Virus record (IMG/VR): IMGVR_UViG_3300031251_000955
Location: 1-37,159 of that record
Source: a virus
Direction: 5' to 3' (one strand)
Length of the DNA: 37,159 nucleotides
Shown: positions 1 through 13,540 of the stretch, one piece after another
Layout: each line of letters starts with the position of its first letter
Numbering within the stretch: position 1 is the first letter of the stretch
Notes under the pieces: model-generated
The model's input: only the letters and a program-made list of their open reading frames with translations
Told to the model about the DNA's origin: nothing
Database searches by the model: none
Position numbers and translations under genes: made by a program

Positions 1-993
1 CTAATTGTCTAATGCCTGTCTAATACTCTGCACCATTGAAGGCCCCTCAGCAACATCAATCTCCCTATCGACTATATAGCTATCAGTCATTCTTTCGTCT
101 GTATGGCCTGCCAGGAGCCTTGGATTATGGCCTTGGCGTTTGGTGTCTGTCAGGCTTTTTCTGCGCAGATCATGGATGTTTGCATTCTCGATCCCCGCAT
201 TTTTACATGCCTTCCTCCATTGTTCAGAAATTCGCAAATATTTAATGGGTTTGCCGCCACGGCCCGTTAGCAAATGAAAGCCGCGCACGGTGGTTTGTAG
301 GCGTTTGGCATTGTCGATCGCTACCTTTAGATCCGGGGTGATGATGACCTTTAACTCTTTACCAGTTTTTTGCTGTTTGAATTGGATATGATCGGCTGAA
401 ATATCCGATAGTTTTATGGCCAGCACATCACCGATCCTTTGGCCGGTTAAGTAGCAAAGATCCATCATTGCCGATACTAGTGGGGTGGCCTCGTGCTTGA
501 TCGCCATGAATTCCTTGTCAGTAATGTATCTATCACGCCTGCCTTCTTTCAGCCTGCCAATGCCCACGCACGGGTTCATTTCAACGATGCCCCATTCCAT
601 GGCGTAGCGAAACACCACTTTTAATATGCTTATGTAACGGTTGGCTGTGCCGGGATTGTTTCTGTAATTGGCTTTGATCGCAGCTATATGTTTTGGTTTA
701 ACCTGGTGTGGCTCGAATTCTGCGAGGATTTCTTTCAACGTTTTAGCGCTGCAGCGGTATTGAACAATAGTGCTTTGGGCAACAGTTGGGGCGTGGTATT
801 CAATAGCCTTGTCGATTAAAGCGGCCATTGCATTTTCGTTTGATTTTGGAGATACCAGGGAAGCATATTTTTGCAGAGCTTCCGTGTAGATGTCCGATAA
901 TCGGGTCCATTTGTTCTTGTGTACGTACCAGTATGCGCCGTTTTTAAAGTACAGCCTTGCTGGTAAATGGCGGTCGCGAGTTTTCTTTCTCAT
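1..993 (-). CDS. int: Tyrosine-recombinase phage integrase
   Basis: This site-specific recombinase integrates and excises the prophage. The 330-residue protein has an N-terminal SAM-like core-binding region (about 55-145) and a C-terminal catalytic domain. The expected residues are visible: Arg186 in TGQRIGD, Lys209 in QQKTGK, His274 and Arg277 in HDLRR, His297 in LAGHTD and the nucleophile Tyr306. The ATG overlaps the upstream DUF4224 gene by four bases (ATGA), indicating translational coupling at the distal end of the leftward operon. The stop codon is at the very first bases of the window. The candidate att core lies inside the last codons, so the four final residues before the stop are probably encoded by host DNA in this lysogen. 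Confidence 0.95.
   Translation of the reverse strand: MRKKTRDRHLPARLYFKNGAYWYVHKNKWTRLSDIYTEALQKYASLVSPKSNENAMAALIDKAIEYHAPTVAQSTIVQYRCSAKTLKEILAEFEPHQVKPKHIAAIKANYRNNPGTANRYISILKVVFRYAMEWGIVEMNPCVGIGRLKEGRRDRYITDKEFMAIKHEATPLVSAMMDLCYLTGQRIGDVLAIKLSDISADHIQFKQQKTGKELKVIITPDLKVAIDNAKRLQTTVRGFHLLTGRGGKPIKYLRISEQWRKACKNAGIENANIHDLRRKSLTDTKRQGHNPRLLAGHTDERMTDSYIVDREIDVAEGPSMVQSIRQALDN
16..28. repeat. Candidate attL core (13-bp direct repeat with 35154-35166)
   Basis: CTGTCTAATACTC occurs here and again immediately after the last phage gene. It sits within the 3' end of the integrase gene. The octamer TGTCTAAT also occurs 11 bp to the left (6-13 and 17-24) and may be part of the integrase-binding core. 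Assignment as attL rests on repeat position and phage gene content; no empty attB site is available for comparison. Confidence 0.7.
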
Positions 994-1193: not shown

Positions 1194-1198
1194 TGGGG

Positions 1199-2037: not shown

Positions 2038-3011
2038 ATTGCGCATCGCGTCATTCTCGGATATTGGTCATGTAATGCGCCATCAAGCAATCGACCGGCT
2101 TTCTTTTTGCCAACACGATCCATCCACAGATCGCCGTCGTAATATCCGGTGCCGTTTGTGCTCTTGTAATCGGCAGTCTCTGGCCATGCTGGCATTTCAC
2201 CCTCAAGCCACTCGCCCCATTGCTTAAACAAAAATGGTACGTCTGCTGACTTGCATTGATCGCGCAGTGATTTTGCCCACGCAGGGTACATCGGCCTTGC
2301 GTCTTTGCCAGACTCACCGCCAACAACAACCCAGTCAAGACCATTGCCATTTTGTACGACGCGCACGCCGTTATGATCTGGCCATTGTTCAAAGTACATT
2401 TCTAAATTAATCGAACCGAGCAGGGGTTCTGCACTTATCCACCGAACTGCTGCTGGCGTTTCAAGCAACAACGGTATGCGCTCGTCAGCTGCTTTTTGAT
2501 CTTCAACACTGACACCGAGCCATACGTTTGAAAGCGGCCACGGTCGGTTGACCACGTAAGTTTGAGCAGTATCTCCATCCTCAACCATGTCTCCTGCGCG
2601 GTCGCCAATGTTCACGCGAGTCCAAGGATTCAACAAATACTGACGCATTCTTTCAGGTCGTTTTGTCAAAATTTGAAACGTGTGACGCTCAGAAAGCGCC
2701 ATCACAGCAAACACCTTGTCGACGTAATCATCCGGCACATTCTCATGGAACAGATCGCTCATGCTGTTCACGAAGATGCGGCGCGGTCGTTGCCAGCGTA
2801 GCGGTTCATCGAGTTTTTCCGGTACCAGTGTGATCTCGCCATTCCACTGACCACCTTTTGCGATCAATCCCTCATAGGGCATTCCTTCACCACTGAAACG
2901 CTTAGCGGTAGTTTCTGCATAGCAATTCCTGCATCCTTCGCTTACGCGTGAGCAGCCGCGGATTGGATTCCATGTAGCATCAGTCCATTCAATTCCAGTT
3001 TTATCAGCCAT
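2034..3011 (-). CDS. Phage Gp37/Gp68 family protein (DUF5131)
   Basis: The protein starts MADKTGIEWTDATWNPIRGC and shows the cysteine motif GCSRVSEGCRNCYAE (C-x5-C-x2-C). Further on are FVNSMSDLFHENVP, QILTKRPERM and the WISAEPLLG and GGESG motifs characteristic of DUF5131. The family has a radical-SAM-like arrangement of cysteines and is proposed to be metal-binding, but its reaction is not established. It is about 325 residues, full length for the family. I chose the start at 3011 rather than the upstream ATG at 3053 because homology begins at MADK; it then overlaps the end of the reverse transcriptase gene by eight bases. It lies directly downstream of the DGR in the same operon. Confidence 0.85.
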   Translation of the reverse strand: MADKTGIEWTDATWNPIRGCSRVSEGCRNCYAETTAKRFSGEGMPYEGLIAKGGQWNGEITLVPEKLDEPLRWQRPRRIFVNSMSDLFHENVPDDYVDKVFAVMALSERHTFQILTKRPERMRQYLLNPWTRVNIGDRAGDMVEDGDTAQTYVVNRPWPLSNVWLGVSVEDQKAADERIPLLLETPAAVRWISAEPLLGSINLEMYFEQWPDHNGVRVVQNGNGLDWVVVGGESGKDARPMYPAWAKSLRDQCKSADVPFLFKQWGEWLEGEMPAWPETADYKSTNGTGYYDGDLWMDRVGKKKAGRLLDGALHDQYPRMTRCAI

Positions 3012-4437
3012 TCTTTTTTCCTCGCTTTCTAAAAGCCTTTGTGTATAACCCATTCACTGCATGGCCGCGTTGCCAGATCGCCTTCACCAATCGTTTGCGA
3101 TCGTTGTAGCTGTGGCTGCTTTGCCTTACCAAACCCAAATAACTATTGGAAGTTTCAAACACCTGGTCCGCATCGATATTCTTGATCCGGATGACGGCTT
3201 GCTTTATCACGCGCCTCCGTGTGGTTCTGCGCCATGGCTTGATCACTTGCCCAACAAAATCAACACCACGATCTACCGGCTGCAGGATGGTTTTGGATGG
3301 GTTGAGTTTGACGTTCAATCGCTCTGGCAAAAACGCATCAATCTGTTCCAGCCAGGTGTTGAGCTGTTGGGGTGATTCATGCAGCAATACAAAGTCATCC
3401 ACGTAGCGAATGTAATGCTTCACGCGCAACTGGTGCTTGATGAATTGATCCAGCTGGTTTAAATAAATATTGGCAAAGAATTGGCTACTGAGATTGCCTA
3501 TTGGCAGGCCGTATTCTGCAGACTGCAGCGCCAGTTGTTTGTGTGGCGGTACCAGTGAAAGCAGTTTGCCGCTGCAGCGTAGCTCATAATTCTGGCGCGG
3601 GTCGTGCAATAGAATTAAATCTGTGAGCTCACGCCACCAAGGCTCGGTTACTTTTTCATGGATGAGTTTCTGCAGGATCGGTTTATCAATGCTGACAAAG
3701 AAGTTTGCCAGATCACATTTTAAATAATGCGCAGGCTTGCTCCAGTTGTGTGTGATGCTGCGAATCTTGCTTTCCAATCGTTGAGCGGCGAACAGTGTGC
3801 CGCGTTCTGGTATGCACGCACAGCTATCGTAAATAAAACTGGCATGGAAGCGTTGTACGATGTGGTTGTAAAGCAGGTGATGCACAATGCGATCACGAAA
3901 ATCTGCAGCCCACACTTCGCGCGGTTTGGGCCGTGTAATCACAAAGCAGATGGATCTGCCCGGCGTGTAAGTGCCGGTATTTAATTCATCGTAGAGTTTC
4001 GCCAGATTGGCTTCGAGGTTGAGCTCAAAGGCAAGGGCGGTGGTGCTGTTGCGTTTTGATTTGCGACAATCAAAATAGGCTTGCACCAGTTGTTCAAATA
4101 AAAAATCAGCATGGCACTTAACAGGTGCATCAAAAAGACAAAGTTGATCTGCGAACGGCACGAGCTCTGTTCGTATTGTCCTTGTGGTCGTTGTTCTGGT
4201 TACCATCTTCAAAGTTCTGGACATACGCGTAATCGGAAGAGTTCTGCGCCTTGTTGTGCTATCGACATCAACAGAGCGAAGGCGAGGCCGATCACTCTGC
4301 AGACTTGGCTCATCCTGAGCTGCTGGCGGTGGCATCGATACAGCAGATGCCAGCGGCACAACCAGATTAAAAAACGCACAGGCATGATAGCCGTAACCGT
4401 CATGCAGCGGGCGCTGCTTTTGCATTTGCTTCTTCAC
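3004..4437 (-). CDS. DGR reverse transcriptase
   Basis: This enzyme copies the template-repeat RNA into adenine-mutagenised cDNA. RT motifs are clear: CDLANFFVSID (catalytic Asp near 242 in this numbering), GLPIGNLSSQFFANIYLNQLD (the DGR version of the QGxxxSP motif) and YVDDFVLL (catalytic Asp pair near 347-348). They are followed by NPSKT and a thumb region. Coordinates give the longest open frame. The first about 92 residues are read through the end of avd and the TR, and are low-complexity and RT-unlike. No methionine codon occurs after the TR, so the true start is either a GTG at 4161 (385 residues, the usual DGR RT size) or an ATG in or before the TR. The stop overlaps the DUF5131 start by eight bases. 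Confidence 0.95.
   Translation of the reverse strand: MKKQMQKQRPLHDGYGYHACAFFNLVVPLASAVSMPPPAAQDEPSLQSDRPRLRSVDVDSTTRRRTLPITRMSRTLKMVTRTTTTRTIRTELVPFADQLCLFDAPVKCHADFLFEQLVQAYFDCRKSKRNSTTALAFELNLEANLAKLYDELNTGTYTPGRSICFVITRPKPREVWAADFRDRIVHHLLYNHIVQRFHASFIYDSCACIPERGTLFAAQRLESKIRSITHNWSKPAHYLKCDLANFFVSIDKPILQKLIHEKVTEPWWRELTDLILLHDPRQNYELRCSGKLLSLVPPHKQLALQSAEYGLPIGNLSSQFFANIYLNQLDQFIKHQLRVKHYIRYVDDFVLLHESPQQLNTWLEQIDAFLPERLNVKLNPSKTILQPVDRGVDFVGQVIKPWRRTTRRRVIKQAVIRIKNIDADQVFETSNSYLGLVRQSSHSYNDRKRLVKAIWQRGHAVNGLYTKAFRKRGKKNG
4147..4248 (-). repeat. DGR template repeat (TR)
   Basis: This 102-bp non-coding template lies between avd and the RT core, the canonical DGR position. Read on the minus strand in the VR frame it encodes a series rich in AAC/AAT codons (QNSSDYAY..., NQNNDHKDNTN). 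AAY codons cannot mutate to stop codons at their adenines. It contains 33 coding-strand adenines, 18 of which differ in at least one VR. The last 23 bp (4147-4169) are identical in all VRs and correspond to the initiation-of-mutagenic-homing (IMH) region. Homology stops exactly after CTGCG on the plus strand (4244-4248) and before position 4147. No GC-rich hairpin follows the TR. Confidence 0.96.
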
Positions 4438-4771
4438 TCTGTTTCTTCCAACCTTGACCTTGTTTACTTACGCTGGTGGTGACTTCAATCGCTGCTGCAT
4501 ACTTCTTTACATCAATCCAGCGCTTATCCTTTGCTACACGGAGTAACACTTCGATTACTTGTATGCGTTCCAGCAACTGTTCAAGATGCGGCACCTTATC
4601 GCGCGCAATGTTGGCTCTCATAATCAGAGTCATCAATTCCGTGCATTCAGTGCGAATCGTTTCACCCACAGTGCGTTTAAAATCACGCGGAAAATTCTGC
4701 GTAACATCAATTGCCATGCCTAATAGATCGTAGGCAGCTTTATAAATAACCAATTCATGGTGGAGTGCCAT
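4400..4771 (-). CDS. avd: DGR accessory variability determinant (Avd, four-helix bundle)
   Basis: The 123-residue basic, all-helical protein starts MALHHELVIYKAAYDLLGM and includes NFPRDFKRTVGETIRTECTE, the pattern of Avd/23S-rRNA-IVP-like four-helix bundle proteins. Avd forms a barrel-shaped pentamer that binds the RT and template RNA and is needed for mutagenic cDNA synthesis. Its position, directly upstream of the TR and RT and downstream of a target gene, is canonical. The C-terminal tail (KKQSEEANAKAAPAA) is probably disordered. The ATG lies 16 bases after the VR1 hairpin and has only a weak ribosome binding site, so expression may depend on coupling or on readthrough from the target gene. 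Confidence 0.92.
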   Translation of the reverse strand: MALHHELVIYKAAYDLLGMAIDVTQNFPRDFKRTVGETIRTECTELMTLIMRANIARDKVPHLEQLLERIQVIEVLLRVAKDKRWIDVKKYAAAIEVTTSVSKQGQGWKKQSEEANAKAAPAA

Positions 4772-4787
4772 GCTGAAAAAACTCGCG

Positions 4788-4804
4788 AGGGCGCTACGCG
4801 CCCT
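4788..4804 (-). other. DNA/RNA hairpin downstream of VR1
   Basis: AGGGCGC-TAC-GCGCCCT is a perfect 7-bp inverted repeat with a 3-base loop, 32 bp beyond the end of VR1 and between the target gene stop and the avd start. Known DGRs need a hairpin or cruciform downstream of the VR for efficient homing. Similar hairpins follow VR2 and VR3 but not the TR. No T-tract follows on the coding strand, so a terminator is unlikely. Confidence 0.85.
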
Positions 4805-4822
4805 GTTTAAATTGTTAAATTA

Positions 4823-5665
4823 CTAAATGACCGATAATCTGCGAACGGCACGAGCTCTGCTCGTATTGACCTTGGGGTCGCCGTACTGGAAACCATCTTC
4901 AAAGAACTGGACATACGCGTAATCGGAAGAGTTCTGCGTGCTTGTCCAATACCAATCGCTTTGCACAAATTGATCCTGGCAATTGACATAGCACATCCGT
5001 GCTTCTTTGCGTGCGGGTAGATACCAGTCTTTATGGCCATCAATTTCCAGTGCAAGAATTTGTTTAGCGAGATCACTTCCATTTTCTGCCATGGCTTTGG
5101 TATTGATCATGCCGTCACCATCGCTGTCGGCATCTTTAATTTTTTTGCCAGCGCATCCCCATTTGACATCCTTGAATGATCCAAGGTCATCGGGTGCAAT
5201 GATCAGGTGATAATCTTTTTCACCGTTGTAGCCGCGCATCAAGCCTGCATAGATGCCGCCTTGTGCTGGCCACATAGTGCCAATGCAGGGTAGGTTTGTT
5301 TTCTGTTGCGCATTGCCAATGTAAAGCATGGCGTTCACCAAACGGCTATCGATGCGTTCATTGCGCTGGTGCAGCATCATGGCAAAGTTCGCCAGATCCA
5401 CGGTGTCGCCTTTGCTGGTGAGTTGTTGTAACAGCAGCTCGTGCAAATGTTCTTTACTGCATTGCTCCATATCATTCCAGCCGGTGCGGCCTTTTACTTC
5501 GCGCGCGAATTTCATTTTTTCACGCATAGCTGCAGCAAAAGTATTCACTGCCTGGTCGTCCGGATGCTTGTTAATTTCCGCCAGCATAATTTCCATAACA
5601 TCATTTGCTGCCATGGATACGCTGGCCTTCCCAATTTTGACTGTGACATCTTTTGCTGCTTTCAT
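4823..5665 (-). CDS. DGR target protein 1 with DUF1566/C-lectin-like C-terminus
   Basis: This is the largest of the three diversified proteins, about 280 residues. The N-terminal 115 residues are helical (MKAAKDVTVKIGKASVSM...). They are followed by a DUF1566/Lcl_C-like domain with GGIYAGLMRG, the acidic DADSDGDGM loop, KDWYLPARKEARM and WYWTSTQNSSD. The C-terminal 34 residues are VR1 and end in RARAVRRLSVI, the conserved DGR target ending. I chose the ATG at 5665 because GGAG precedes it at good spacing; an ATG at 5680 lacks this. There is no signal peptide or membrane segment, so the product is cytosolic or virion-borne. A neighbouring hairpin and avd follow directly. Confidence 0.9.
   Translation of the reverse strand: MKAAKDVTVKIGKASVSMAANDVMEIMLAEINKHPDDQAVNTFAAAMREKMKFAREVKGRTGWNDMEQCSKEHLHELLLQQLTSKGDTVDLANFAMMLHQRNERIDSRLVNAMLYIGNAQQKTNLPCIGTMWPAQGGIYAGLMRGYNGEKDYHLIIAPDDLGSFKDVKWGCAGKKIKDADSDGDGMINTKAMAENGSDLAKQILALEIDGHKDWYLPARKEARMCYVNCQDQFVQSDWYWTSTQNSSDYAYVQFFEDGFQYGDPKVNTSRARAVRRLSVI
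4837..4938 (-). repeat. DGR variable repeat VR1
   Basis: This 102-bp copy of the TR sits at the 3' end of the target 1 gene. It differs from the TR at 10 positions, all TR adenines on the coding strand. AAC codons of the template have become TTC (Phe), TAC (Tyr), GGC (Gly) and others, with the invariant AAG Lys retained. The 23-bp IMH end is unchanged. Confidence 0.96.
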
Positions 5666-5692
5666 GATCGTGATCTCCAAAAAAATCCGAAA

Positions 5693-5708
5693 GGGCGCTG
5701 GTGCGCCC
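5693..5708 (-). other. DNA/RNA hairpin downstream of VR2
   Basis: GGGCGC-TGGT-GCGCCC is a 6-bp inverted repeat with a 4-base loop, 32 bp beyond the end of VR2 and just before the ribosome binding site of target 1. The spacing from the VR matches the VR1 hairpin. It is followed by an A/T-rich stretch and GGAGA, a layout that recurs upstream of the ParB-like gene. Confidence 0.8.
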
Positions 5709-5723
5709 CATCAAATGGTTAAA

Positions 5724-6329
5724 TTACTCAATGACTAATAATCTGCGAACGGCACGAGCTCTGTGCGTATTGCCCTTGTGGGCGAAGCCCTGGGTACCAT
5801 CTGCAAAGTACTGGACATACGCGGAATCGGAAGAGTACTGCGTCGAACTCCAGTACCATGCTGCTTCAAAGGCTTCTGCGCCACCTTCCTTGAATGCTTC
5901 TACTGTTGTTTGTGCGGGGCTTTCTTCTGTGTATGGGTAACCTGCAGGAATACTGCTGGCATTGTCACCATCACGGAAGCTGCAATAGTTTTTATAGGCC
6001 GTTGGTTTGAAATTTCTGTGCGCCATTTCTTGTTCATCACGACTCCATAGATACCAGTCATCCAGATCTGCGATGCGTAGTGCGCGAATTTTTTGCGCAA
6101 GCCCGCTGCCATTGGAGGCCATCGCATCTGTATTTGCCAAGCCATCGTTACAGCTGCTGGCATCAATCTTGTCGCCATAGCCACCATATTCACCTTCAAG
6201 ATCGCCTTCTGCTTTTGGTGAAATGATCGATGCGTATGTATCGTTGCCGATACGGAATAAACTATTGTAGAAACCGCCGCCGAGTGGTGCGCCGATGGCG
6301 GGCAGTTCTGATTTGCGGATTGTGTTCAT
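5724..6329 (-). CDS. DGR target protein 2, DUF1566-like
   Basis: The protein is about 201 residues and starts MNTIRKSELPAIGAPLGGGF. It has a DUF1566-like body: GNDTYASIISP, DDWYLWSRDEQEMA, then an insertion and AWYWSSTQYSSDS. It ends in VR2 (RARAVRRLLVIE). I chose the ATG at 6329 because AGGAGAACACGCC precedes it; the frame is open for 17 more codons upstream but without a good site. An almost identical leader (CCACCACACYAGGAGAACAC) precedes the internal ATG of target 3, showing that the two genes are duplicated cassettes. No signal peptide is visible. It is a paralogue of targets 1 and 3, with the most heavily mutated VR. Confidence 0.9.
   Translation of the reverse strand: MNTIRKSELPAIGAPLGGGFYNSLFRIGNDTYASIISPKAEGDLEGEYGGYGDKIDASSCNDGLANTDAMASNGSGLAQKIRALRIADLDDWYLWSRDEQEMAHRNFKPTAYKNYCSFRDGDNASSIPAGYPYTEESPAQTTVEAFKEGGAEAFEAAWYWSSTQYSSDSAYVQYFADGTQGFAHKGNTHRARAVRRLLVIE
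5741..5842 (-). repeat. DGR variable repeat VR2
   Basis: This 102-bp TR copy sits at the 3' end of the target 2 gene. It has 12 differences from the TR, the most of the three, all at TR adenines of the coding strand. Substitutions include Asn to Tyr, Gly, Phe, His and Thr and Asp to Ala or Gly. The IMH end is identical to the TR. Confidence 0.96.
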
Positions 6330-6384
6330 GGCGTGTTCTCCTAGTGTGGTGGTTAAAAATGGCGGGGCGAACCCCGCCATGTGA

Positions 6385-6738
6385 TTACTGTGCTGGTGAT
6401 GTTGCTGCTGCGCTCGTTGTGTCTGAGCTTTGGGTATCTGCTGAATTTGCAGTTACATCTACTGCGGGAGAAGCTGTAGTTGTATCAGTGCTGGTATCTG
6501 TAACGGCTACAACTGGTTGCGCTACTGCATCGCAATCAATTGCATCAGCGGGTCGCGCATTTACATTCGCAAGTACGCGAACAGCATTAACGGGAAGAAC
6601 CGTTTTTAAGTCGCCTTCGCCAACCTGGACCAAGTCTGTTTTTTCACAATTTAAAAACTGCTCTTCGTCGTTCGTGAACGATTTAATTTCGCCAAAAAGG
6701 CGAGTGTTGTCTCGTGTATCAATTACTAACATTTTCAT
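6385..6738 (-). CDS. Hypothetical protein with Ala/Thr/Ser-rich tail
   Basis: The 117-residue protein has a compact N-terminal half (MKMLVIDTRDNTRLFGEIKS ... LKTVLPVNAVRVLANV) that looks like a small beta-rich domain. The low-complexity tail of Thr, Ser, Asp and Ala (about 72-117) is probably disordered. It lies between the ParB-like gene and target 2 in the same operon. I do not recognise the family. The N-terminal half recalls small anti-restriction or Sm-fold-like phage proteins only loosely. A plausible ribosome binding site (AGGAAAAAT) precedes the ATG at 6738. Confidence 0.55.
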   Translation of the reverse strand: MKMLVIDTRDNTRLFGEIKSFTNDEEQFLNCEKTDLVQVGEGDLKTVLPVNAVRVLANVNARPADAIDCDAVAQPVVAVTDTSTDTTTASPAVDVTANSADTQSSDTTSAAATSPAQ

Positions 6739-6799
6739 GATATTTTTCCTATGTAAAGGTTGATGAATACCGGCGCTACCCGGCGGTTAAGCACTGAAA

Positions 6800-8539
6800 T
6801 TATTTCGACTCAAAGCCTTCCGGAATCCATGTGGGGTTTTTGGTTTTGATCAGTTCTTCCACTTTGGCTACTAACTGCCCTTTGTTGGATTTGCTGACAG
6901 TCATTTTCCAATCGCCTTCTGGGTCGTCATGGAATTTGGCACCAAGCTCTGCCAGTTGGTTTTTATTGAGCCACTTGTAAAAATTTTCAGCGGTTGGGTT
7001 GTAATATTCATTCCACTTGATTTGCATGAGTTTGATGACCGACTCGGTGAGATCGTTATTATGGTCAGGGTCATTGGAGAACAGGGCTACATGCATTAAG
7101 TTGGAAGCGCAGAACGCAAACAGTTGTTGTTTATAGTTGCTGTCCAAGTTGCGGAATTTTTCAAACGCTGCAGCAAGGTCTTCATCTTTCCAGCTCATTT
7201 TTAGGCTATCGTAATGCTCGCAATATTTTTGACCTGCAATTGATTCAGTGGCGGGCAAATCAAGTCCCATGCCGAAACTCATGGTGAGGGTGCTGTCATC
7301 GGCATCACCAAGGATCTGATTGCAAATACTAAAAATAAACAAGTCTCTCGCAAGTTCTGGGTCGTATGCCAGGTGCAATCGCGCAATGGTTTCGCGCGCA
7401 TTTCGCAGATCTGTTTTCAGGCTCTGTGAAAGATCAATACTTTCATCTTCGACTGGTTTGGCTGTTTCGACTTCTTCTGTGTCAGTGTCCGGTTTTTTGG
7501 CAGCGGCCTTTTTAGAGGGTTTATTTAACAGTTTGTTGAGTTCGGCCTTATCTTCCTTTTTCACGAGGCCTTTGGTGATACCCAGTTTTCCGCCGTGATC
7601 AACGAACAGAATGCAGCCAGCCAGTTTCATTTGCGCCGCATTAAATGTTTTATCATCACCATGGCCTTTGCCATCCAGGTGAAAGTGATCATGCTCTAGC
7701 TTGTGATCGCGTTTGATTACTTTATCTGCCCACTTCCAGCCTTCGGCCAGAATCTTTTCTGACTGCTTGCTGAGTTTTTCAATAGCTAGGCGGTTCAGCA
7801 ATTCATCATCAGTGATGTAAAAAACATTATCACCAAATAGATCCTCGGTGCTGGATCCGCCCGCTGCCTGATACGCTTTCAATGTTACAAACTTCACCAA
7901 GTCACTATCATTGGTGATGCGGGATTCTTTCAGGTTGTCGCGTATCTCACCTGGTTCCAGATATTCCACGTCGCCTTTTACTTTTTTCCAAACCGCCATT
8001 TGTTTTTTCTGATCGGGCTGGGTGGTGAATTCCTTCACATGATCCAGATTTATTTTTCCATCCTTGTATGCCTGCAGGATGTCGGGATGCACGGCGGCCA
8101 TGCCAAGGCGTTGTTTAACGTGCTTAACCGTGATGCCATAGCGTGCAGCTACTTCATCCTCGGTGAGTTTTGATTCGTTGATCAATTTTGTAAATGCTTC
8201 AAACTCTTCTGCAGGGTGCATATTGAGCCGCACCGTATTGGCGATATATGAAGTTTCTTCCGCGCTATCGGGTTCAACCACTTTGCAATCAACGGTATTT
8301 GTGGCTTTAAAATGGTTTTCTTTTACCAGTTGTAGCAATGCCTTGCGGCGACGTTCACCATCAACAACCTCATACATCCCTTTTTGTTTTTTAGATGGTT
8401 CGACAAGTAAATTAAGGAGCGTGTCATGCTCGCGAATTGATGCAACCAGCTCTGCATCGGCTTGGGGATTTGATTTTACTTTGCGCACGTTTTTTGGTGA
8501 TGCAATGAGTTTGTTAATTTGTATGGCTTTAATGGTCAT
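6800..8539 (-). CDS. ParB/RepB/Spo0J-type nuclease-domain protein
   Basis: This is a 579-residue protein. The N-terminal ParB domain (about 1-110) has IQINKLIASPKNVRK, the VVDGERRRKAL box (61-65 GERRR) and NTVRLNMHPAEE. It is followed by a KorB-like helix-turn-helix (about 127-147, EVAARYGITVKHVKQRLGMA). A Lys/Glu-rich linker near 345-370 leads into a C-terminal region that I do not recognise. ParB-family proteins bind DNA at specific sites, and the domain can bind CTP. No ParA partner is present, so a partition role is doubtful; phage relatives are more likely DNA-binding regulators or nucleases. The gene sits between two DGR target cassettes, directly after the VR3 hairpin. Confidence 0.85.
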   Translation of the reverse strand: MTIKAIQINKLIASPKNVRKVKSNPQADAELVASIREHDTLLNLLVEPSKKQKGMYEVVDGERRRKALLQLVKENHFKATNTVDCKVVEPDSAEETSYIANTVRLNMHPAEEFEAFTKLINESKLTEDEVAARYGITVKHVKQRLGMAAVHPDILQAYKDGKINLDHVKEFTTQPDQKKQMAVWKKVKGDVEYLEPGEIRDNLKESRITNDSDLVKFVTLKAYQAAGGSSTEDLFGDNVFYITDDELLNRLAIEKLSKQSEKILAEGWKWADKVIKRDHKLEHDHFHLDGKGHGDDKTFNAAQMKLAGCILFVDHGGKLGITKGLVKKEDKAELNKLLNKPSKKAAAKKPDTDTEEVETAKPVEDESIDLSQSLKTDLRNARETIARLHLAYDPELARDLFIFSICNQILGDADDSTLTMSFGMGLDLPATESIAGQKYCEHYDSLKMSWKDEDLAAAFEKFRNLDSNYKQQLFAFCASNLMHVALFSNDPDHNNDLTESVIKLMQIKWNEYYNPTAENFYKWLNKNQLAELGAKFHDDPEGDWKMTVSKSNKGQLVAKVEELIKTKNPTWIPEGFESK

Positions 8540-8562
8540 GGTGCTCTCCTAAAAAAATCTGA

Positions 8563-8582
8563 AAGGGCGCGGGTGCGCCCTT
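8563..8582 (-). other. DNA/RNA hairpin downstream of VR3
   Basis: AAGGGCGC-GGGT-GCGCCCTT is a perfect 8-bp inverted repeat with a 4-base loop, 28 bp beyond the end of VR3 and between the target 3 stop and the ParB-like gene. It is the longest of the three VR-associated hairpins and shares the core GGGCGC/GCGCCC. Confidence 0.85.
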
Positions 8583-8596
8583 AAATTGTTAAATAA

Positions 8597-9208
8597 CTAA
8601 ATGATTGATAATCTGCGAACGGCACGAGCTCTGCTCGTATTGTCCTTGAGGGCGTCGTCCTGGTTACCACCTTCAAAGTTCTGGACATACGCGTAACCGG
8701 AAGAGTTCTGCGTGCGTAACCAGTACCAGCCGTTGTATTCACGTGAGCTTCCGGTGTTTTTAGAATCCAGTGCGGCTTCTGCGCGTGATGGCAATTGCGC
8801 GCCATCACCTAAACTCTCTGCCCATTTCATGGCTTCATTCCATGTGAGAGGTTCATCGTTGGGTGGGGTTGCGTCCAGTGCGATTAGGAAAGCGTCTGGC
8901 TCTCCGTTCTCTCCGCGCGCGATTCCTTTGAATTCGCCGCCGTGCATTTTGGTGCCGATTGCTGCTAGTTCATTAATGTTCATGATGTGTTCTCCTGGTG
9001 TGGTGGTAGGTGATGTAGAAATAAAATGTTTTTTAATTAATTCACAAGCGGTTACGGCAATGCCGTTACCGCGCATGAATGCGGTTATGCGTAGCCACTC
9101 CAGTGCTTCATCTGGTGTGGCTACGCCTTCCTTAATTTTTTTTGCCAGCAATCTTTCGGGGGCGATTGTGTCTGGCAAGCCGTCATAGCTCGCTGCTTCG
9201 GTGTTCAT
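8597..9208 (-). CDS. DGR target protein 3, possibly two cistrons fused in frame
   Basis: The open frame of 203 residues joins a helical N-terminal segment (1-62, MNTEAASYDGLPDTIAPERL...) to a DUF1566-like target. The target begins at an internal ATG (codon 76, position 8983) and ends in VR3 (GWYWLRTQNSSGYAYV ... RARAVRRLSII). The internal ATG is preceded by AGGAGAACACATC, nearly identical to the target 2 leader. Either a 128-residue target is translated separately or a fusion is made, or both. The upstream ATG at 9208 also has a good site (AGGAATTTTTA). The DUF1566 part is shorter than in targets 1 and 2. No signal peptide or membrane segment is present. Confidence 0.88.
   Translation of the reverse strand: MNTEAASYDGLPDTIAPERLLAKKIKEGVATPDEALEWLRITAFMRGNGIAVTACELIKKHFISTSPTTTPGEHIMNINELAAIGTKMHGGEFKGIARGENGEPDAFLIALDATPPNDEPLTWNEAMKWAESLGDGAQLPSRAEAALDSKNTGSSREYNGWYWLRTQNSSGYAYVQNFEGGNQDDALKDNTSRARAVRRLSII
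8611..8712 (-). repeat. DGR variable repeat VR3
   Basis: This 102-bp TR copy at the 3' end of target 3 has only 7 differences from the TR, all at TR adenines of the coding strand. On the coding strand these are mostly A-to-G transitions. It is the VR closest to the template and so either the most recently reset or the least edited copy. Confidence 0.96.
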
Positions 9209-9222
9209 TAAAAATTCCTGTG

Positions 9223-9540
9223 TCAGTGTTGCTGAATTAGTCCTGCGTTCTTTGCGATCTCTCGCACAAATTCCAATCCTTTGCTGGTGACGATGGGCTT
9301 TTTGTAATACTTATCCATGTTGTAGCCCGGTAATTTGTAAAAACTTAATGTGGTAGTGAAGTAACCTTGGTCAATTACAAACTGGGTTGGCTCATTGTTT
9401 TCTTTCAGCACCTTGTGTTCTTTCAGGCAGGCCATTAATTTATTTTTACCAACACCCAACATTTTTGCTGCCGTGCCGATCTCATAGCTGAGTACAACAG
9501 GTGCGCGCGTTCTTTGTTCAGTGCTTACCATTGCCAACAT
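9223..9540 (-). CDS. KilA-C domain antirepressor-like protein
   Basis: The protein is about 105 residues with the phage antirepressor KilA-C pattern. An N-terminal helix-turn-helix-like segment (YEIGTAAKMLGVGKNKLMAC) leads to LKEHKVL, then PTQFVIDQGYFTT and a C-terminal PIVTSKGLEFVREIAKNAG. Such domains antagonise repressors or act as DNA-binding regulators in phage early regions. Here only the KilA-C part is present, with no N-terminal Bro or Ant domain. It lies two genes before the DGR cassettes and could tune the lysogeny decision. Start at the ATG at 9540; a TTG at 9546 is an alternative. Confidence 0.75.
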   Translation of the reverse strand: MLAMVSTEQRTRAPVVLSYEIGTAAKMLGVGKNKLMACLKEHKVLKENNEPTQFVIDQGYFTTTLSFYKLPGYNMDKYYKKPIVTSKGLEFVREIAKNAGLIQQH

Positions 9541-9542
9541 AT

Positions 9543-9776
9543 TCAATGAATCGGATTTGGGTTTAATGTGATGTGTACTCGGCCACTGCTATCCACTTTT
9601 GTGCATGCGCTGAGCGGATGTCCGCTTACACCGGTTGGAATTTTTTGAATAACCCCACCATTGCGCTCGAATGCTTCAACGTCCATCGCGAGGGATTGGC
9701 GCTGCAGATTTTTAATTTGTTGCGTGCTGCGTGATTCGAGTGCCTGGTTGTGTGCTTGCTGATCAAACAAATGCAT
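9543..9776 (-). CDS. Hypothetical small early protein
   Basis: I do not recognise this 77-residue protein (MHLFDQQAHNQALESRSTQQ ... VHITLNPNPIH). I chose the ATG at 9776 because a strong ribosome binding site (GGAGGTGTT) precedes it directly; the open frame upstream overlaps the previous gene. It is Gln/Ser-rich and helical in the first half, without membrane segments. It is an early operon member of unknown role. Confidence 0.55.
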   Translation of the reverse strand: MHLFDQQAHNQALESRSTQQIKNLQRQSLAMDVEAFERNGGVIQKIPTGVSGHPLSACTKVDSSGRVHITLNPNPIH

Positions 9777-9786
9777 AACACCTCCG

Positions 9787-10038
9787 TTATTTCCAGCGGC
9801 GAGAGTCATGTAGCGCCCACGGCCAGAAGATGAGATAAACAAAAAGGTAAAGGGGCAGCACTAGCCAGTAGACGTTGCGCAGGGTGTTGATCCAGGCATT
9901 GAATTTACTGGTGCCATAGGGATCGAGCCGCACGTTGTGCATGCTGGACACTTCACGCCATGCATCACGGATACCCAGTAATAGGCCAACGAGGGCCCAG
10001 CCTTTTAATAAAAAAATGGCAACGGCGATGGCATTCAT
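9787..10038 (-). CDS. Hypothetical small membrane protein
   Basis: The 83-residue protein has two clear hydrophobic segments: residues 3-22 (AIAVAIFLLKGWALVGLLLG) and about 56-75 (YWLVLPLYLFVYLIFWPW). A polar loop lies between them. Its ATG overlaps the stop of the preceding gene by four bases. An inner-membrane location is expected. It could be a superinfection-exclusion or host-takeover factor, but nothing in the sequence identifies a family. Confidence 0.6.
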   Translation of the reverse strand: MNAIAVAIFLLKGWALVGLLLGIRDAWREVSSMHNVRLDPYGTSKFNAWINTLRNVYWLVLPLYLFVYLIFWPWALHDSRRWK

Positions 10039-10229
10039 GCGGCATTACCGCCTGGCCAGTTAGGGTCGTTTGGTTCGAGGGAAATGCTTGAGGGGCGGAT
10101 ATGGGTGGGGCGCTTGTTAAGGCTTTTCTGGCTGAATCGGGCCACGACTACAAGGCCGAATTCCTTGGTCAGTTGAGCCAGGGAATGCCTGTTTTGCATC
10201 AGGGTTGGGTGTGCGTAGATCTTTGCCAT
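10035..10229 (-). CDS. Hypothetical first gene of the leftward operon
   Basis: The 64-residue basic protein (MAKIYAHPTLMQNRHSLAQL ... PNWPGGNAA) belongs to no family I recognise. It is preceded by GGAGG at ideal spacing and lies about 23 bases after the predicted start of the leftward promoter, so it is the first gene of the early operon. It has no membrane segment or visible motif. Confidence 0.55.
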   Translation of the reverse strand: MAKIYAHPTLMQNRHSLAQLTKEFGLVVVARFSQKSLNKRPTHIRPSSISLEPNDPNWPGGNAA

Positions 10230-10258
10230 TTGCCCCTCCAGATAGGTTGGATGGGCTA

Positions 10259-10287
10259 AATATAAGCATACTTATATATTTAGTCAA
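10259..10287 (-). promoter_or_regulatory. Predicted leftward early promoter (pL-like)
   Basis: On the minus strand TTGACT (10287-10282) and TATATT (10264-10259) are separated by exactly 17 bp, a near-consensus sigma-70 promoter. Both elements are overlapped or touched by repressor-type inverted repeats. It would drive all leftward genes from 10229 to the integrase, including the DGR. Confidence 0.75.
10262..10275. promoter_or_regulatory. Operator OL1-like inverted repeat
   Basis: ATAAG-CATA-CTTAT overlaps the -10 element and spacer of the leftward promoter. It shares the ATAAG-N4-CTTAT consensus with the sites between the repressor and cro genes, so the same repressor should bind here. Confidence 0.75.
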
Positions 10288-10300
10288 TAAGAAAACTTAT
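10287..10300. promoter_or_regulatory. Operator OL2-like inverted repeat
   Basis: ATAAG-AAAA-CTTAT abuts the -35 element of the leftward promoter. It lies 25 bp (centre to centre) from the first leftward operator, a spacing that could allow cooperative repressor binding. Confidence 0.75.
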
Positions 10301-10343
10301 ATTTTTGATGAAACTAACATTAAATTCTATATGTTTGTGGGTT

Positions 10344-10865
10344 TTATAGACGGCCTTCTGTGAACGTGGCAGAGGCTGTTGAGTTACTCGGGGTATAGTC
10401 GCACTGGTAAATGATGTTTTTCCATGCTCCGAAGTTACTTTGGGCTTGTGCCTGATCTCCAAAATATGTAATGACTCCACTTGTTCCATTGTCGTTATCT
10501 TTCCAGAGAGCCTTTCTGAAAAAGCTTCGTGAATTAATGTCGTCTGCCCATTTAACTGCATTGGTGGTTGAATGTTCTATTGCTGTTTTACAGCTTTCCA
10601 TGGCGCTGGAATTATTTTCTCTTGCCCAGCAAACAACGTCTTTTTTGCATTGCTCAATGCGCATGGTTTCTTTGATGGCGTCGGCTTTTTGTGAATCAAC
10701 ACTCCATTGGCCAAGCATGCCCGCGAGAATTAGCACAATTGGTGTAGCAATTAGAATATCTTTGCCCCTTAAAGATGGGTATTCACGTCCACACTTTAGG
10801 CATTTTTTCCATTTTTCTTGGCTTGTAAGTAAGTTTCCACACCTAGAACAATTTGATGATGGCAT
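10344..10865 (-). CDS. Zinc-ribbon membrane protein downstream of the repressor
   Basis: The 173-residue protein has an N-terminal zinc ribbon (CSRCGN ... CLKCGRE, two CxxC pairs within the first 26 residues). One membrane helix follows at about 36-53 (ILIATPIVLILAGMLGQW). A roughly 115-residue exported domain contains several cysteines (QCKKDVVCWARE, ESCKTA, IYQCDY) and ends TASATFTEGRL. It starts 11 bases after the repressor stop and reads the same way, so it is probably expressed from the repressor promoter in the lysogen. Its position and topology suggest a lysogenic-conversion or superinfection-exclusion gene. That role is inferred from location; I recognise no named family. Confidence 0.65.
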   Translation of the reverse strand: MPSSNCSRCGNLLTSQEKWKKCLKCGREYPSLRGKDILIATPIVLILAGMLGQWSVDSQKADAIKETMRIEQCKKDVVCWARENNSSAMESCKTAIEHSTTNAVKWADDINSRSFFRKALWKDNDNGTSGVITYFGDQAQAQSNFGAWKNIIYQCDYTPSNSTASATFTEGRL

Positions 10866-10875
10866 TGTTTTCCCT

Positions 10876-11526
10876 TCATTGTTTCAGCGAGTTAGTGATG
10901 AATGCGCAGTGCACAACGCCCTCAATATGCCATTTATTATCAAGCTGCTCAAGTGAATATGAGGGGTGCGGATTTAGAGGTTTCAGATAATGCTGGCCAT
11001 CATCAATGACATATTTCTTACAGGTGGCACGTGAGCCATCCTTCATTCTAGCGATTACGATATCACCAATTTTTGGTGATTGAATCACATCGAATATTAT
11101 CAATGCGCCGTCTGGAATTGACTGTCTATTACCTGGTGAACACATGCTGTCACCTTCCATTTTTACTGCCCGACTTTGGGCGGTAGCGAGGCCTCCGGGG
11201 ATGGTTTCGTATTCCGGCTGGGCATTCCAATCATGTTTTGCGATTTGCTCCCAGCTCAAAACCTGAACCCTTGATGACTGATCGACTGATCGATAATGTG
11301 GCATTGCGTCGCCACTTCGCGATTCTTCCATTTCTCCTTCGCCCGTAGCAAGCCATTCTGCATTCACTTTTAACACTCTTGCCAGCTGTGCGATAAAAGA
11401 TGTTGATGCACTTTTTCCTCCTTCTATCTGGGAATAGGCTGACTGTGTTATTCCAACAGCCTTCGCGACTTCATCTTGGCTAAGCGTGCTCAATTTTCGA
11501 GCTTGTTTTATGCGGTCTTTTAACAT
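10876..11526 (-). CDS. CI/LexA-type phage repressor (HTH + S24 peptidase)
   Basis: This 216-residue protein maintains lysogeny by binding operators. The N-terminal XRE helix-turn-helix (about 14-37, SQDEVAKAVGITQSAYSQIE) is followed by a linker and an S24 peptidase domain. The domain has the nucleophile Ser127 in EGDSM and the general-base lysine in CKKYV (170/171). Family members self-cleave on RecA activation, usually at Ala-Gly; here no Ala-Gly is obvious in the linker (a GGLA stretch at 111-114 is the nearest). The gene diverges from cro across three operators. SD sequence AGGA precedes the ATG at 11526. Confidence 0.92.
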   Translation of the reverse strand: MLKDRIKQARKLSTLSQDEVAKAVGITQSAYSQIEGGKSASTSFIAQLARVLKVNAEWLATGEGEMEESRSGDAMPHYRSVDQSSRVQVLSWEQIAKHDWNAQPEYETIPGGLATAQSRAVKMEGDSMCSPGNRQSIPDGALIIFDVIQSPKIGDIVIARMKDGSRATCKKYVIDDGQHYLKPLNPHPSYSLEQLDNKWHIEGVVHCAFITNSLKQ

Positions 11527-11537
11527 TGCGCCATCCT

Positions 11538-11551
11538 ATAAGTTTTCTTAT
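11538..11551. promoter_or_regulatory. Operator OR3-like inverted repeat
   Basis: ATAAG-TTTT-CTTAT lies just downstream of the predicted repressor promoter and directly before the repressor SD sequence. Binding here would repress repressor synthesis, like lambda OR3. Confidence 0.72.
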
Positions 11552-11552
11552 C

Positions 11553-11581
11553 ACATTAAAAATAAGTATTCTTATTGACAA
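11553..11581 (-). promoter_or_regulatory. Predicted repressor maintenance promoter (pRM-like)
   Basis: On the minus strand TTGTCA (11581-11576) and TAATGT (11558-11553) are separated by 17 bp. This moderate promoter reads into the repressor gene. Its -35 region overlaps the middle operator, as expected if the repressor can activate it. Confidence 0.6.
11562..11575. promoter_or_regulatory. Operator OR2-like inverted repeat
   Basis: ATAAG-TATT-CTTAT (extended by one base pair each side) abuts the -35 element of the rightward promoter and overlaps the upstream part of the repressor promoter. It lies 24 bp from OR3 and 23 bp from OR1, centre to centre. Confidence 0.75.
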
Positions 11582-11603
11582 AATATAAGCAATCTTATAT
11601 TTT
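11575..11603 (+). promoter_or_regulatory. Predicted rightward early promoter (pR-like)
   Basis: TTGACA (11575-11580) is followed by TATATT at 15-bp spacing or TATTTT at 17-bp spacing, within the long palindrome. It reads into the cro-like gene. The exact -10 is uncertain. Confidence 0.65.
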
Positions 11604-11606
11604 GTC
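11577..11606. promoter_or_regulatory. Operator OR1-like 30-bp perfect palindrome
   Basis: A perfect inverted repeat with 13-bp arms around a CAAT centre contains the operator core ATAAG-CAAT-CTTAT at 11585-11598. It covers the spacer and -10 of the rightward promoter. The long symmetry suggests the tightest-binding site or an additional binding protein such as the Cro-like product. Confidence 0.75.
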
Positions 11607-11629
11607 TGTTCAGATAAGGTTTGGTGATC

Positions 11630-11848
11630 ATGAATAAACTCAAAGAATATAGAAAGTTAGCTGGTGTAACTCAACAAAAACTTGCTGATACATGTGGCTG
11701 CAAACAGCCCGCTGTATGGGCGATTGAAGGTGGCTCTATGCCCAATGTTGACCTTGGTAGAAAAATAATCAAGGCGCTTAACTCTACTGGCAAAGTAAAT
11801 GTGACATTGGATGATGTTTTCCCGCCACAAGATCAAGAGGCTGCGTAA
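11630..11848 (+). CDS. Cro-like helix-turn-helix regulator
   Basis: The 72-residue protein (MNKLKEYRKLAGVTQQKLAD) carries an XRE/YdaS-type helix-turn-helix at about 13-33 (TQQKLADTCGCKQPAVWAIE). It is the first rightward gene, opposite the repressor, and small as in the Cro family. It would compete for the same operators and favour lytic growth. I chose the ATG at 11630 with ATAAGGT nine bases upstream; a TTG at 11621 is in frame but unlikely. Confidence 0.85.
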   Translation: MNKLKEYRKLAGVTQQKLADTCGCKQPAVWAIEGGSMPNVDLGRKIIKALNSTGKVNVTLDDVFPPQDQEAA

Positions 11849-11973
11849 CGATGTCTTTAATTTTGGGGAATTCATTTCAGTAGCACCAATAGTTGATTTA
11901 CACATCGTATCGGGTAATCGGCCACCCCGATACGTTAATTATCAAGGCTAACAATACATCGCTAGAGGATTTT

Positions 11974-12465
11974 ATGAGTAACAAACAATTTGGACAGCGC
12001 GATCGTGCAGAAAGATGTTTATTGGATTTGCAAATGGCGTGTTATCACGCCACACATGATTATCCTGGTGGTGCTTCCGCATTGGCAGCAATGCGCGGCA
12101 TGAATCCGCCTGTGCTGCAAAGCAAATTGAATCCCAATATAAAAACGCACCAAATCAATGTGCGGGACCTGCAAACTATTTGTGAGGTAACGCAGGATGA
12201 GCGCATCTTGCAAACCGTATGCAGTTATTACAACGCCGGGTATTTTTTGCTGCCTGATGCACGGGAAATAAATCATGAAACCATTTTGCAACAAAGCGCT
12301 GATTTAACGCGTGAAGTGGGGGATCTCATGCAAGTTGTCTCCCAGTCGGTTACCGATGGAAAAGTAAATCAGGATGAAATAAGTGCTCTCGATAAAAAAC
12401 TGATCGAACTAATTGGCACTGCGAAAGCGTTAATCGAACACGCAAAACTTTCTTGTAATAAATAA
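11974..12465 (+). CDS. Phage regulatory protein, CII/CP76 family
   Basis: The 163-residue protein contains LLDLQMACYHATHDYPGGASALAAM, then NPPVLQSKLNPNIKTHQINVRDLQTI. This is the signature of the phage regulatory CII-like family (Phage_CII, known from P2-like and related phages). These act as early DNA-binding regulators. The C-terminal third is a helical coiled region (DLTREVGDLMQVVSQSV). I chose the ATG at 11974 because AGAGGA lies just upstream; the frame extends upstream without a ribosome binding site. It is the second rightward gene, consistent with a role in the lysis-lysogeny decision. Confidence 0.85.
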   Translation: MSNKQFGQRDRAERCLLDLQMACYHATHDYPGGASALAAMRGMNPPVLQSKLNPNIKTHQINVRDLQTICEVTQDERILQTVCSYYNAGYFLLPDAREINHETILQQSADLTREVGDLMQVVSQSVTDGKVNQDEISALDKKLIELIGTAKALIEHAKLSCNK

Positions 12466-12483
12466 CATCCGGGTATTTTCAGT

Positions 12484-12681
12484 ATGAGTAAATTGATAGC
12501 GCGGCCTGAAACAATTGCAAAGGCCATTAATGTTACCGAGAAAAAAATAGTGCATGGGTATGATCTTGGATTTCGTTATGCAGATACACCTGAGCAGCAA
12601 CAAGCCACAGGAGTATTAAGCCAGATTCACGGTGATGAATTTTCATTACTGGAAAAATTAAAGTCACTGCAGTCGGGTTGA
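12484..12681 (+). CDS. Hypothetical small early protein
   Basis: The 65-residue protein (MSKLIARPETIAKAINVTEK...) is soluble and helical and has no motif I recognise. It lies between the CII-like gene and the replication initiator gene with short gaps, so it is part of the rightward early transcript. The ribosome binding site is weak. Confidence 0.5.
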   Translation: MSKLIARPETIAKAINVTEKKIVHGYDLGFRYADTPEQQQATGVLSQIHGDEFSLLEKLKSLQSG

Positions 12682-12691
12682 AATCTTTCCA

Positions 12692-13540
12692 ATGTCGCAG
12701 CCGAATCGTTGGCAATGGAACGAGCATGAAGATGCGGCTCTGCATGAATTGCAGAACCACCATGCGGCCATTCTGTATTTGCGCGGCTTACGCAAGCATA
12801 TGGATTACGACACAGGATTGGTGGGTGTGCGACGCCGTATTTCGTTGCGCATGTTTGTGGAGCTTTTAGAGGAGCGGCGTGATCCAGGGAGTCCATTGCC
12901 TTGCTATGTGCCATCAATCGCATCTATTCGGTGGTGCCTTGATAGACTTGAAAAAGTTGGGTTGATTCGGCGCATGGAAAAAACACATCGTCTTGCTCCG
13001 ATGGTATTTGAACTGCCATTGGCCACTATCGGAATAATGAATAAACCGCAACAACAAGAGCTACAGCAAATAGCTACAGCAATAGATTTAACAAATAATA
13101 TCGATAAAAACAGTACCGACCAGAATAGCTACAACAAAGAGGTACAACAAGAGCTACATCAAAACCAAAAATATCCAGCATGCCCACATAAAGAATTATT
13201 GGCACTTTGGCGAGAGGCTATGAAGGGTAAAAAGGTGCCTGTGCCAAAAGAAGGATATTGGGAACCCAAGCGCAAGGGTTACCGCGATTTATCTGCCCGC
13301 TGGACAGAAGGTTTCAAGCGCGTGAACAGCGAAACTAAACTGCCGATATACATGGATAAAGAAAGTGGAATTAAGATAGCCACCATGGCAGGTGCATTGA
13401 AGTGGTGGGAAGGATTTTTTAATTACTGTGCAAAATCCACTTTTCTGACAACGGAATGTCGTGCGTTTGATCTCGACTGGGCAGTGAATTACGAAAACTT
13501 TAGAAAAATAATCCAGGGGAATTACATTGACAAGCAATAA
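12692..13540 (+). CDS. Replication initiator-like protein (lambda O-like)
   Basis: This 282-residue protein is probably the phage replication initiator. The N-terminal part (about 1-115) contains a winged-helix-like region (RRRISLRMFVELLEERRDPG ... IRWCLDRLEKVGLIRRME). A Gln/Asn-rich linker (about 118-160) follows, encoded by direct DNA repeats. The C-terminal domain ends DLDWAVNYENFRKIIQGNYI, a pattern seen in phage O/DnaD-type replication proteins. It directly precedes and overlaps the DnaB helicase gene. As in lambda O, the initiator gene contains iterons inside its own coding sequence, so the origin is probably internal. The exact family is not certain. Confidence 0.75.
   Translation: MSQPNRWQWNEHEDAALHELQNHHAAILYLRGLRKHMDYDTGLVGVRRRISLRMFVELLEERRDPGSPLPCYVPSIASIRWCLDRLEKVGLIRRMEKTHRLAPMVFELPLATIGIMNKPQQQELQQIATAIDLTNNIDKNSTDQNSYNKEVQQELHQNQKYPACPHKELLALWREAMKGKKVPVPKEGYWEPKRKGYRDLSARWTEGFKRVNSETKLPIYMDKESGIKIATMAGALKWWEGFFNYCAKSTFLTTECRAFDLDWAVNYENFRKIIQGNYIDKQ
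13059..13162 (+). repeat. Iteron cluster A, putative replication origin inside the initiator gene
   Basis: Five direct repeats with consensus AGCTACAGCAA start at 13059, 13072, 13127, 13140 and 13152. Two lie on the left and three on the right of an A/T-rich 44-bp spacer. Spacing within groups is 12-13 bp. The arrangement resembles lambda ori inside O. A second, non-coding copy of the whole arrangement lies at 15359-15475. Confidence 0.72.

Follow-up and report, generated by a model that had tools for sequence, protein, structure and literature searches.

The sequence studied was the 37-kb virus record IMGVR_UViG_3300031251_000955 (positions 1-37,159), referred to below as the window. Its immunity region contains divergent cI and cro genes with three operators between them, and a CII-like gene is located after cro. 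From the leftward promoter pL to the left end, every gene lies on the minus strand, in the order small genes, SutA RNA-polymerase-binding-domain gene, KilAC antirepressor, three variable proteins, ParB-like protein, Avd, reverse transcriptase (RT), others, and integrase. These genes are nearly contiguous, with gaps mostly below 65 bp, and the diversity-generating retroelement (DGR) is located ~6 kb from pL. The genes and elements were assigned as follows.

11959..12465, plus strand: CII-like activator (phrog_101, 8e-25)
11630..11848, plus strand: Cro-like HTH protein (Pfam HTH_3, PHROGs)
10876..11526, minus strand: CI repressor, HTH_3 and Peptidase_S24 (Pfam, PHROG phrog_4, 434 and lambda repressor structures)
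10344..10865, minus strand: zinc-ribbon protein (weak Pfam zinc-ribbon matches; position downstream of cI)
10035..10229, minus strand: 64-aa product of the first pL-operon gene, no family match
9543-9842, minus strand: small early pL-operon protein, SutA RNA-polymerase-binding domain (Pfam 4.8e-9)
9223..9546, minus strand: KilAC-domain antirepressor-like protein (Pfam ANT 1.6e-11, PHROGs Ant), in the pL operon
8597..9208, minus strand: DGR target protein 1, with variable region VR1 at 8611-8712 (102 nt against TR, 7 mismatches)
6800-8539, minus strand: ParB-like protein, 579 aa, distantly related to proteins in cyanophage and gut phage records
5724..6380, minus strand: DGR target protein 3, Lcl_C (Pfam), with VR3 at 5741-5842 (12 mismatches to TR)
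4823..5680, minus strand: DGR target protein 2, Lcl_C (Pfam), with VR2 at 4837-4938 (10 mismatches to TR)
4400..4771, minus strand: Avd-like protein, 45-56% to Avd of other DGR phages
4247..4416, minus strand: RT-15 RNA (Rfam RF03018, E 1.3e-26), directly before TR
4147-4248: template repeat TR, 102-nt alignment to the three VRs
3004..4236, minus strand: DGR reverse transcriptase (coordinates of the query stretch), RVT_1, 62-66% identity to RTs of other DGR phages
1..993, minus strand: integrase, last in the leftward run, matching integrases of other DGR phages

The closest named-phage relative of the window CI is 434 CI, with 35% identity. Single-sequence searches of viral and genome contigs returned no close relative of this repressor, and 8-residue patterns proved too strict. 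The protein keeps GDSM with the catalytic Ser, plus the catalytic Lys, and it carries VDQSSRVQVLSWEQIAKH where 434 has YPLISMVRAGSWCEACEP. An Ala-Gly or similar cleavage site is typical of lambdoid immunity CI, though not required, and the Ala-Gly site is present in 36 of the 40 distinct CI compared. SOS-triggered switch-on of the window prophage thus appears doubtful, because the Ala-Gly self-cleavage site is missing from its CI. The CI of contig L162, which lies beside ATAAG-N4-CTTAT operators, also has no Ala-Gly site.

The zinc-ribbon gene, between cI and pL, corresponds in position to rexAB of lambda and hex of 434. The first pL genes gave no PHROG match, and no N antiterminator was recognised among them. 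The SutA-domain protein (9543-9842) is located near where lambda has N, and it is possibly a phage transcription factor. The KilAC antirepressor, though itself behind pL, is a candidate inducer of the prophage, and the integrase may have its own promoter. At the other end of the window, a sulfatase-like long frame (35234-37159) follows the endolysin region and reaches the right end, and could represent either a passenger gene or flanking host DNA.

The TR aligns with VR1, VR2, and VR3 over 102 nt ungapped, and all of the 7, 10, and 12 mismatches fall at TR adenines, with none elsewhere. By its RT, Avd, TR, and adenine-specific VR differences, the element is a DGR. Avd is also annotated in the phages Magia and phPA-G. 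The three targets (4823-9208) are all small Lcl_C/lectin-like proteins in the early operon, and none lies in the tail region. The ParB-like gene has a counterpart at the matching place in record L007. A GC-rich stem-loop (GGGCGC...GCGCCC) follows each VR (8563-8582, 4788-4804, and behind VR3), resembling the hairpin of other DGRs. We considered the one at 8582-8563 as an operon-internal terminator and dropped the idea; it is more likely a DGR hairpin, since a similar stem stands behind every VR.

Operators and promoters

A model's sequence-only reading had claimed five ATAAG-N4-CTTAT sites, two over the leftward promoter (10262-10300) and three between repressor and cro (11538-11598), and had named a scan with this consensus as a check. 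Scanning the whole 37-kb window returned precisely these five exact sites and no sixth, compared with 0.05 expected from base composition, and the exact positions confirmed the layout. Half-sites with any other spacer of 0-14 nt gave no match in the window. One single-mismatch site, at 35255, lies within a coding frame and was taken as chance. Two-mismatch sites occurred at chance level, indicating that the operator signal resides in the exact sites. The sites and the promoter elements associated with them are listed below.

10262..10275, no strand: OL1 operator ATAAGCATACTTAT, exact site, overlaps the pL -10
10287..10300, no strand: OL2 operator ATAAGAAAACTTAT, exact site, fused at its end with the pL -35
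11538..11551, no strand: OR3-like operator ATAAGTTTTCTTAT, exact site, adjoins cI
11562..11575, no strand: OR2-like operator ATAAGTATTCTTAT, exact site
11585..11598, no strand: OR1-like operator ATAAGCAATCTTAT, exact site within the inverted repeat 11577-11606
10259..10287, minus strand: pL promoter TTGACT-17-TATATT, sigma-70-like match, 10/12
11575..11603, plus strand: pR promoter TTGACA-17-TATTTT, sigma-70-like match, 10/12
11533..11538, minus strand: leaderless pRM -10 TAGGAT, 6 nt upstream of the cI ATG (11526)

The inverted repeat at 11577-11606 had been described as a perfect 30-bp palindrome. Its two 13-bp arms are indeed perfect, and they flank a CAAT centre that is not palindromic (13+4+13). 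The OL and OR clusters are 1.24 kb apart.

Relatives of the system were sought in viral contigs by two tandem ATAAG-N4-CTTAT sites, which yielded at least 119 stretches. Operator presence in these contigs is by construction, since the tandem sites were the selection criterion; CI adjacency, a second operator cluster, and promoter fusion were not part of the selection. Among the matches listed, 61 of the 73 contigs with a CI homolog have a triple of OR sites where cI starts and, continuing in the same direction past cI, a pair of OL sites; these 61 relatives represent 53 distinct CI N-termini. Their geometry is nearly uniform among the matches listed: the OR spacing is 23/24 in 59 of the 61 and the OL spacing 25 or 26 in 60, with 25 bp, the OL1-OL2 distance of the window, being the commonest. 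The fusion at the pL -35 (TGAC joined to CTTAT) recurs in 60 of the 61 and that at the pL -10 (CTTATATT) in 58, while the OL-OR distance ranges from 0.8 to 6.1 kb, again among the matches listed. A search with a long exact OR pattern gave no match, and MR13, retrieved as a CI relative, has no ATAAG-N4-CTTAT sites.

The window has the operator set of phage phi297, namely ATAAG-N4-CTTAT with an OR spacing of 23/24 and an OL spacing of 25-26. The suggestion that its operator sequence is a different one is correct with respect to lambda; judged by sequence and spacing, the window operator is an existing, widespread immunity type found in phi297 and the 61 contigs (among the matches listed), not one peculiar to this phage. 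The recognition helix G-x-x-Q-x-x-x-S-Q is common to the window CI (GITQSAYSQIE) and the CI of this group (GVEQPVISQLE or close forms), at an overall identity of 28-49%. Reading helix against half-site in the light of 434 structures, the Q might contact the first A, and S-Q versus A-K might go with G versus C at half-site position 5.

The operator region is AT-rich, and inverted repeats could arise there by chance and have no regulatory role. This explanation is extremely improbable, as five sites stand against 0.05 expected, all lie at two promoters, and the five-site layout is repeated in phi297 and the 61 contigs (among the matches listed). Sites for a host regulator were also considered as the identity of the five operators and rejected.

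Two of the three best sigma-70-like promoter matches in positions 1-12700 sit on the operator clusters. OL2 is fused to the pL -35, and OL1 to the pL -10. In the window and lambda alike, the ends of OR2 and OR1 overlap the pR -35 and -10, respectively. The overlap at both promoters fits CI repression of each. An alternative pR -10, TATATT, is available at a 15-bp spacer, and TATTTT in the 17-bp reading is the weaker hexamer. Promoters with 17-bp spacing had been proposed at the pL, pR, and pRM positions; pL and pR were recovered in this form, whereas the better match for pRM is the leaderless TAGGAT. The pRM proposed earlier had not been spelled out, and the sole 17-bp candidate found by reading the sequence is TTGTCA-17-TAATGT.

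The lambda cI transcript is leaderless. A TAnnnT hexamer precedes the cI ATG by exactly 6 nt in lambda (TAGATT), the window (TAGGAT), and the relatives L059 (TAAAAT), L078 (TACCAT), and L081 (TATCAT). In the 61 relatives (among the matches listed), the cI ATG follows OR3 by 12-13 nt, with TAAATT or TAGATT directly after OR3 in most. Because the -10 position recurs in this way, the window pRM is probably leaderless. This assignment places the operators at the lambda OR3/OR2/OR1 distances, with centres 18.5/42.5/65.5 bp from the cI ATG compared with 19/42/66 bp in lambda. An SD-like AGGA 7 nt before the window cI ATG keeps a leadered pRM possible. In that case, TTGTCA-17-TAATGT would be the true cI promoter, giving a 20-nt leader that contains the AGGA, comparable to the 18-nt cI leader of 434. 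We regard this as unlikely: TAATGT matches a -10 at 3/6 positions only, the resulting operator distances match neither lambda nor 434, the first site falls on the start point, no site lies near -65, and the -10 position kept elsewhere is the leaderless one.

Transcription of the leftward operon

The resemblance to lambda OL/OR noted in the sequence-only reading extends to a CI with HTH and S24 domains, Cro, a CII-like gene, three OR and two pL sites, and the lambda geometry. The two OL sites, compared with three in lambda and 434, count against a lambda-type reading. The link that the sequence-only reading drew between immunity and the DGR operon likewise held, in that the DGR, antirepressor, and integrase form one same-strand run after pL, an arrangement recurrent in the DGR lineage. 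The region is very likely a lambda-type OL/OR immunity system in which the DGR would belong to a CI-repressed delayed-early set, because the gene run from the putatively CI-repressed pL includes it. The sites, geometry, promoters, gene order, and recurrence were observed; from them we infer CI and Cro binding, looping, transcription, and the timing of the DGR.

CI dimers are predicted to bind the three cI-cro sites and the two pL sites. Bound at OR1/OR2 and OL1/OL2, CI would mask both hexamers (-10 and -35) of pR and of pL and shut the two promoters. CI at OR2 would abut the weak -35 of the leaderless pRM and could stimulate cI, and OR3 covers pRM, which might serve negative control or the action of Cro. 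Transcription from pL would run via the small genes, the KilAC antirepressor, the three variable proteins, Avd, the TR RNA, and RT to the integrase. The DGR would then be expressed mainly after infection or upon CI failure, and the retroelement is probably held down during prophage dormancy. Its silence in the lysogen is something we only infer from the sequence.

The minus strand from cI to pL yielded no intrinsic terminator; the gap folds without a GC-rich hairpin, and the zinc-ribbon stop is just 44 bp away from OL2. cI transcripts may therefore enter the leftward operon. A lesser but appreciable possibility is that the switch is real and the DGR is not silent: a cI-zinc-ribbon transcript would read through the CI-bound OL and supply a low, constant level of DGR RNA, CI control adding only a large burst to this. 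Lambda and nine of the relatives checked have a strong terminator between cI and OL, just ahead of OL, whereas none was detected in 434, Magia, L055, or L059. Rho termination or a CI roadblock would escape detection by sequence here. The hankyphage study (PMC12135933) records DGR activity in uninduced cultures, though virions also arise spontaneously there.

DGR loci behind other immunity regions

RTs 62-66% identical to the window RT occur in Pseudomonas, Burkholderia, and Shewanella phages, and annotated DGR phage records present CI, then same-strand genes including the DGR, then the integrase. We assembled 63 non-redundant DGR loci of the window RT lineage and sought CI in them by similarity to ten repressors, so that a missing CI means little. 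CI lies upstream of the DGR on the same strand in all 37 loci where it was found. An integrase was found in 35 loci and, in 33 of them, lies downstream and on the same strand.

Operator recurrence was examined by picking palindromic motifs from the cI-cro gap alone and seeking them within 3 kb after cI. Such motifs recurred in 26 of 34 loci (45 hits, 1.32 per locus), compared with 35 of 122 (40 hits, 0.33 per locus) for motifs from random stretches. A first enrichment figure, 46 versus 5.5 expected, was overstated because the choice of motifs favours those rare elsewhere; the random-stretch control is the fair one. Magia and Cruim01 have clear 3 + 2 operator sets. For phPA-G, Haboob, and LPPA56, one method gave weak de novo operators or none and another gave suggestive ones; these are not firm. 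The operator sequence of the window itself stands ahead of the DGR operon in three DGR phages, with five exact sites in L232, three exact and two with one mismatch in L233, and four exact in L234.

Recurrence with differing operators suggests that selection has favoured this wiring, or at the least this location. Alternatively, a promoter of its own might drive the DGR, whose place after pL would then carry no regulatory meaning, the pL-int block of lambdoid phages merely tolerating cargo. Accessory genes are common in that block. We consider this quite unlikely, given that no minus-strand sigma-70-like match of at least 9/12 occurs from pL to position 153, the genes nearly abut, and DGR position and strand are kept in 37/37 loci, whereas the BPP-1 DGR sits by tail genes.

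Returning to selection for the wiring, it is quite possible, and we propose it tentatively, that the RT-15-type phage DGR lineage, whose targets are small, lectin-like, and not tail proteins, forms a dedicated delayed-early module repressed by CI, in which operators are swapped between phages and the DGR stays after pL. Hypermutation would then be confined to infection and prophage exit, and would be off in the lysogen. A literature search found no paper in which the CI operators of lambdoid phages are linked to a DGR. Taken alone, the switch is ordinary and its operator type common; the interest lies in the recurrent, putative connection between this DGR lineage and the immunity repressor. 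Operators that place the DGR under the immunity repressor allow a direct test, in which DGR transcripts and VR mutation are compared with and without CI.

Comparison with named systems

Pseudomonas phage phi297 (NC_016762) resembles the window in its five exact ATAAG-N4-CTTAT sites, three between cI and cro spaced 23 and 24 and two at pL spaced 25, as well as in its CII-like gene and an identical -35/-10 fusion at pL. TAGATT stands directly behind its OR3. Unlike in the window, ParA-like and opposite-strand genes lie between cI and pL, the OL-OR distance is 2.8 kb compared with 1.24 kb, and the CI is only distantly related overall. No DGR was recognised in the part of the phi297 genome examined. 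The annotated start of phi297 CI (L224 4078-4950) lies inside OR, and the conserved start MSALKDRIKLARK is found downstream, directly after OR3; the start is therefore probably misannotated. A phi297 vir mutant fails to grow on a phi297 lysogen, from which its authors infer a still functional operator (PMC3564109). As a cultured phage with five matching sites, phi297 makes the operators testable in the laboratory.

Lambda shares the three OR sites and their distances from a leaderless cI. It differs in operator sequence and length and in having three OL sites instead of two. A terminator before OL and Ala-Gly in CI are present in lambda, and neither was found in the window. Phage 434 has 14-bp operators and a hex-like gene position as in the window, and differs in its ACAA-N6-TTGT operators, leadered cI, and three OL sites.

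The Bordetella phage BPP-1 resembles the window in TR, VR, Avd, and RT. Its DGR cassette lies by tail/lysis genes, not after cI, and its target is the tail protein Mtd. The BPP-1 gene bbp36 (L104 32776-33705) contains an annotated second variable region, VR2; this gene belongs to the cI-to-integrase block of BPP-1 and lies apart from the main DGR. In the Bacteroides hankyphage, silencing of the CI-like repressor RepC_HP raised phage gene expression and DGR activity (PMC12135933). Unlike the window, hankyphage is a Mu-like transposable phage, and its DGR diversifies a tail fibre.

Burkholderia phage Magia shares both the switch and the retroelement. It has 3 + 2 operators (ATAAC-N4-GTTAT, spacing 23/24 and 24) and a DGR of the same lineage (RT 62%) after pL with short lectin-fold targets (PMC7883833). 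It differs from the window in a half-site ending in C, the recognition helix SQPAIAKVE, and a short CI annotated without an S24 domain.
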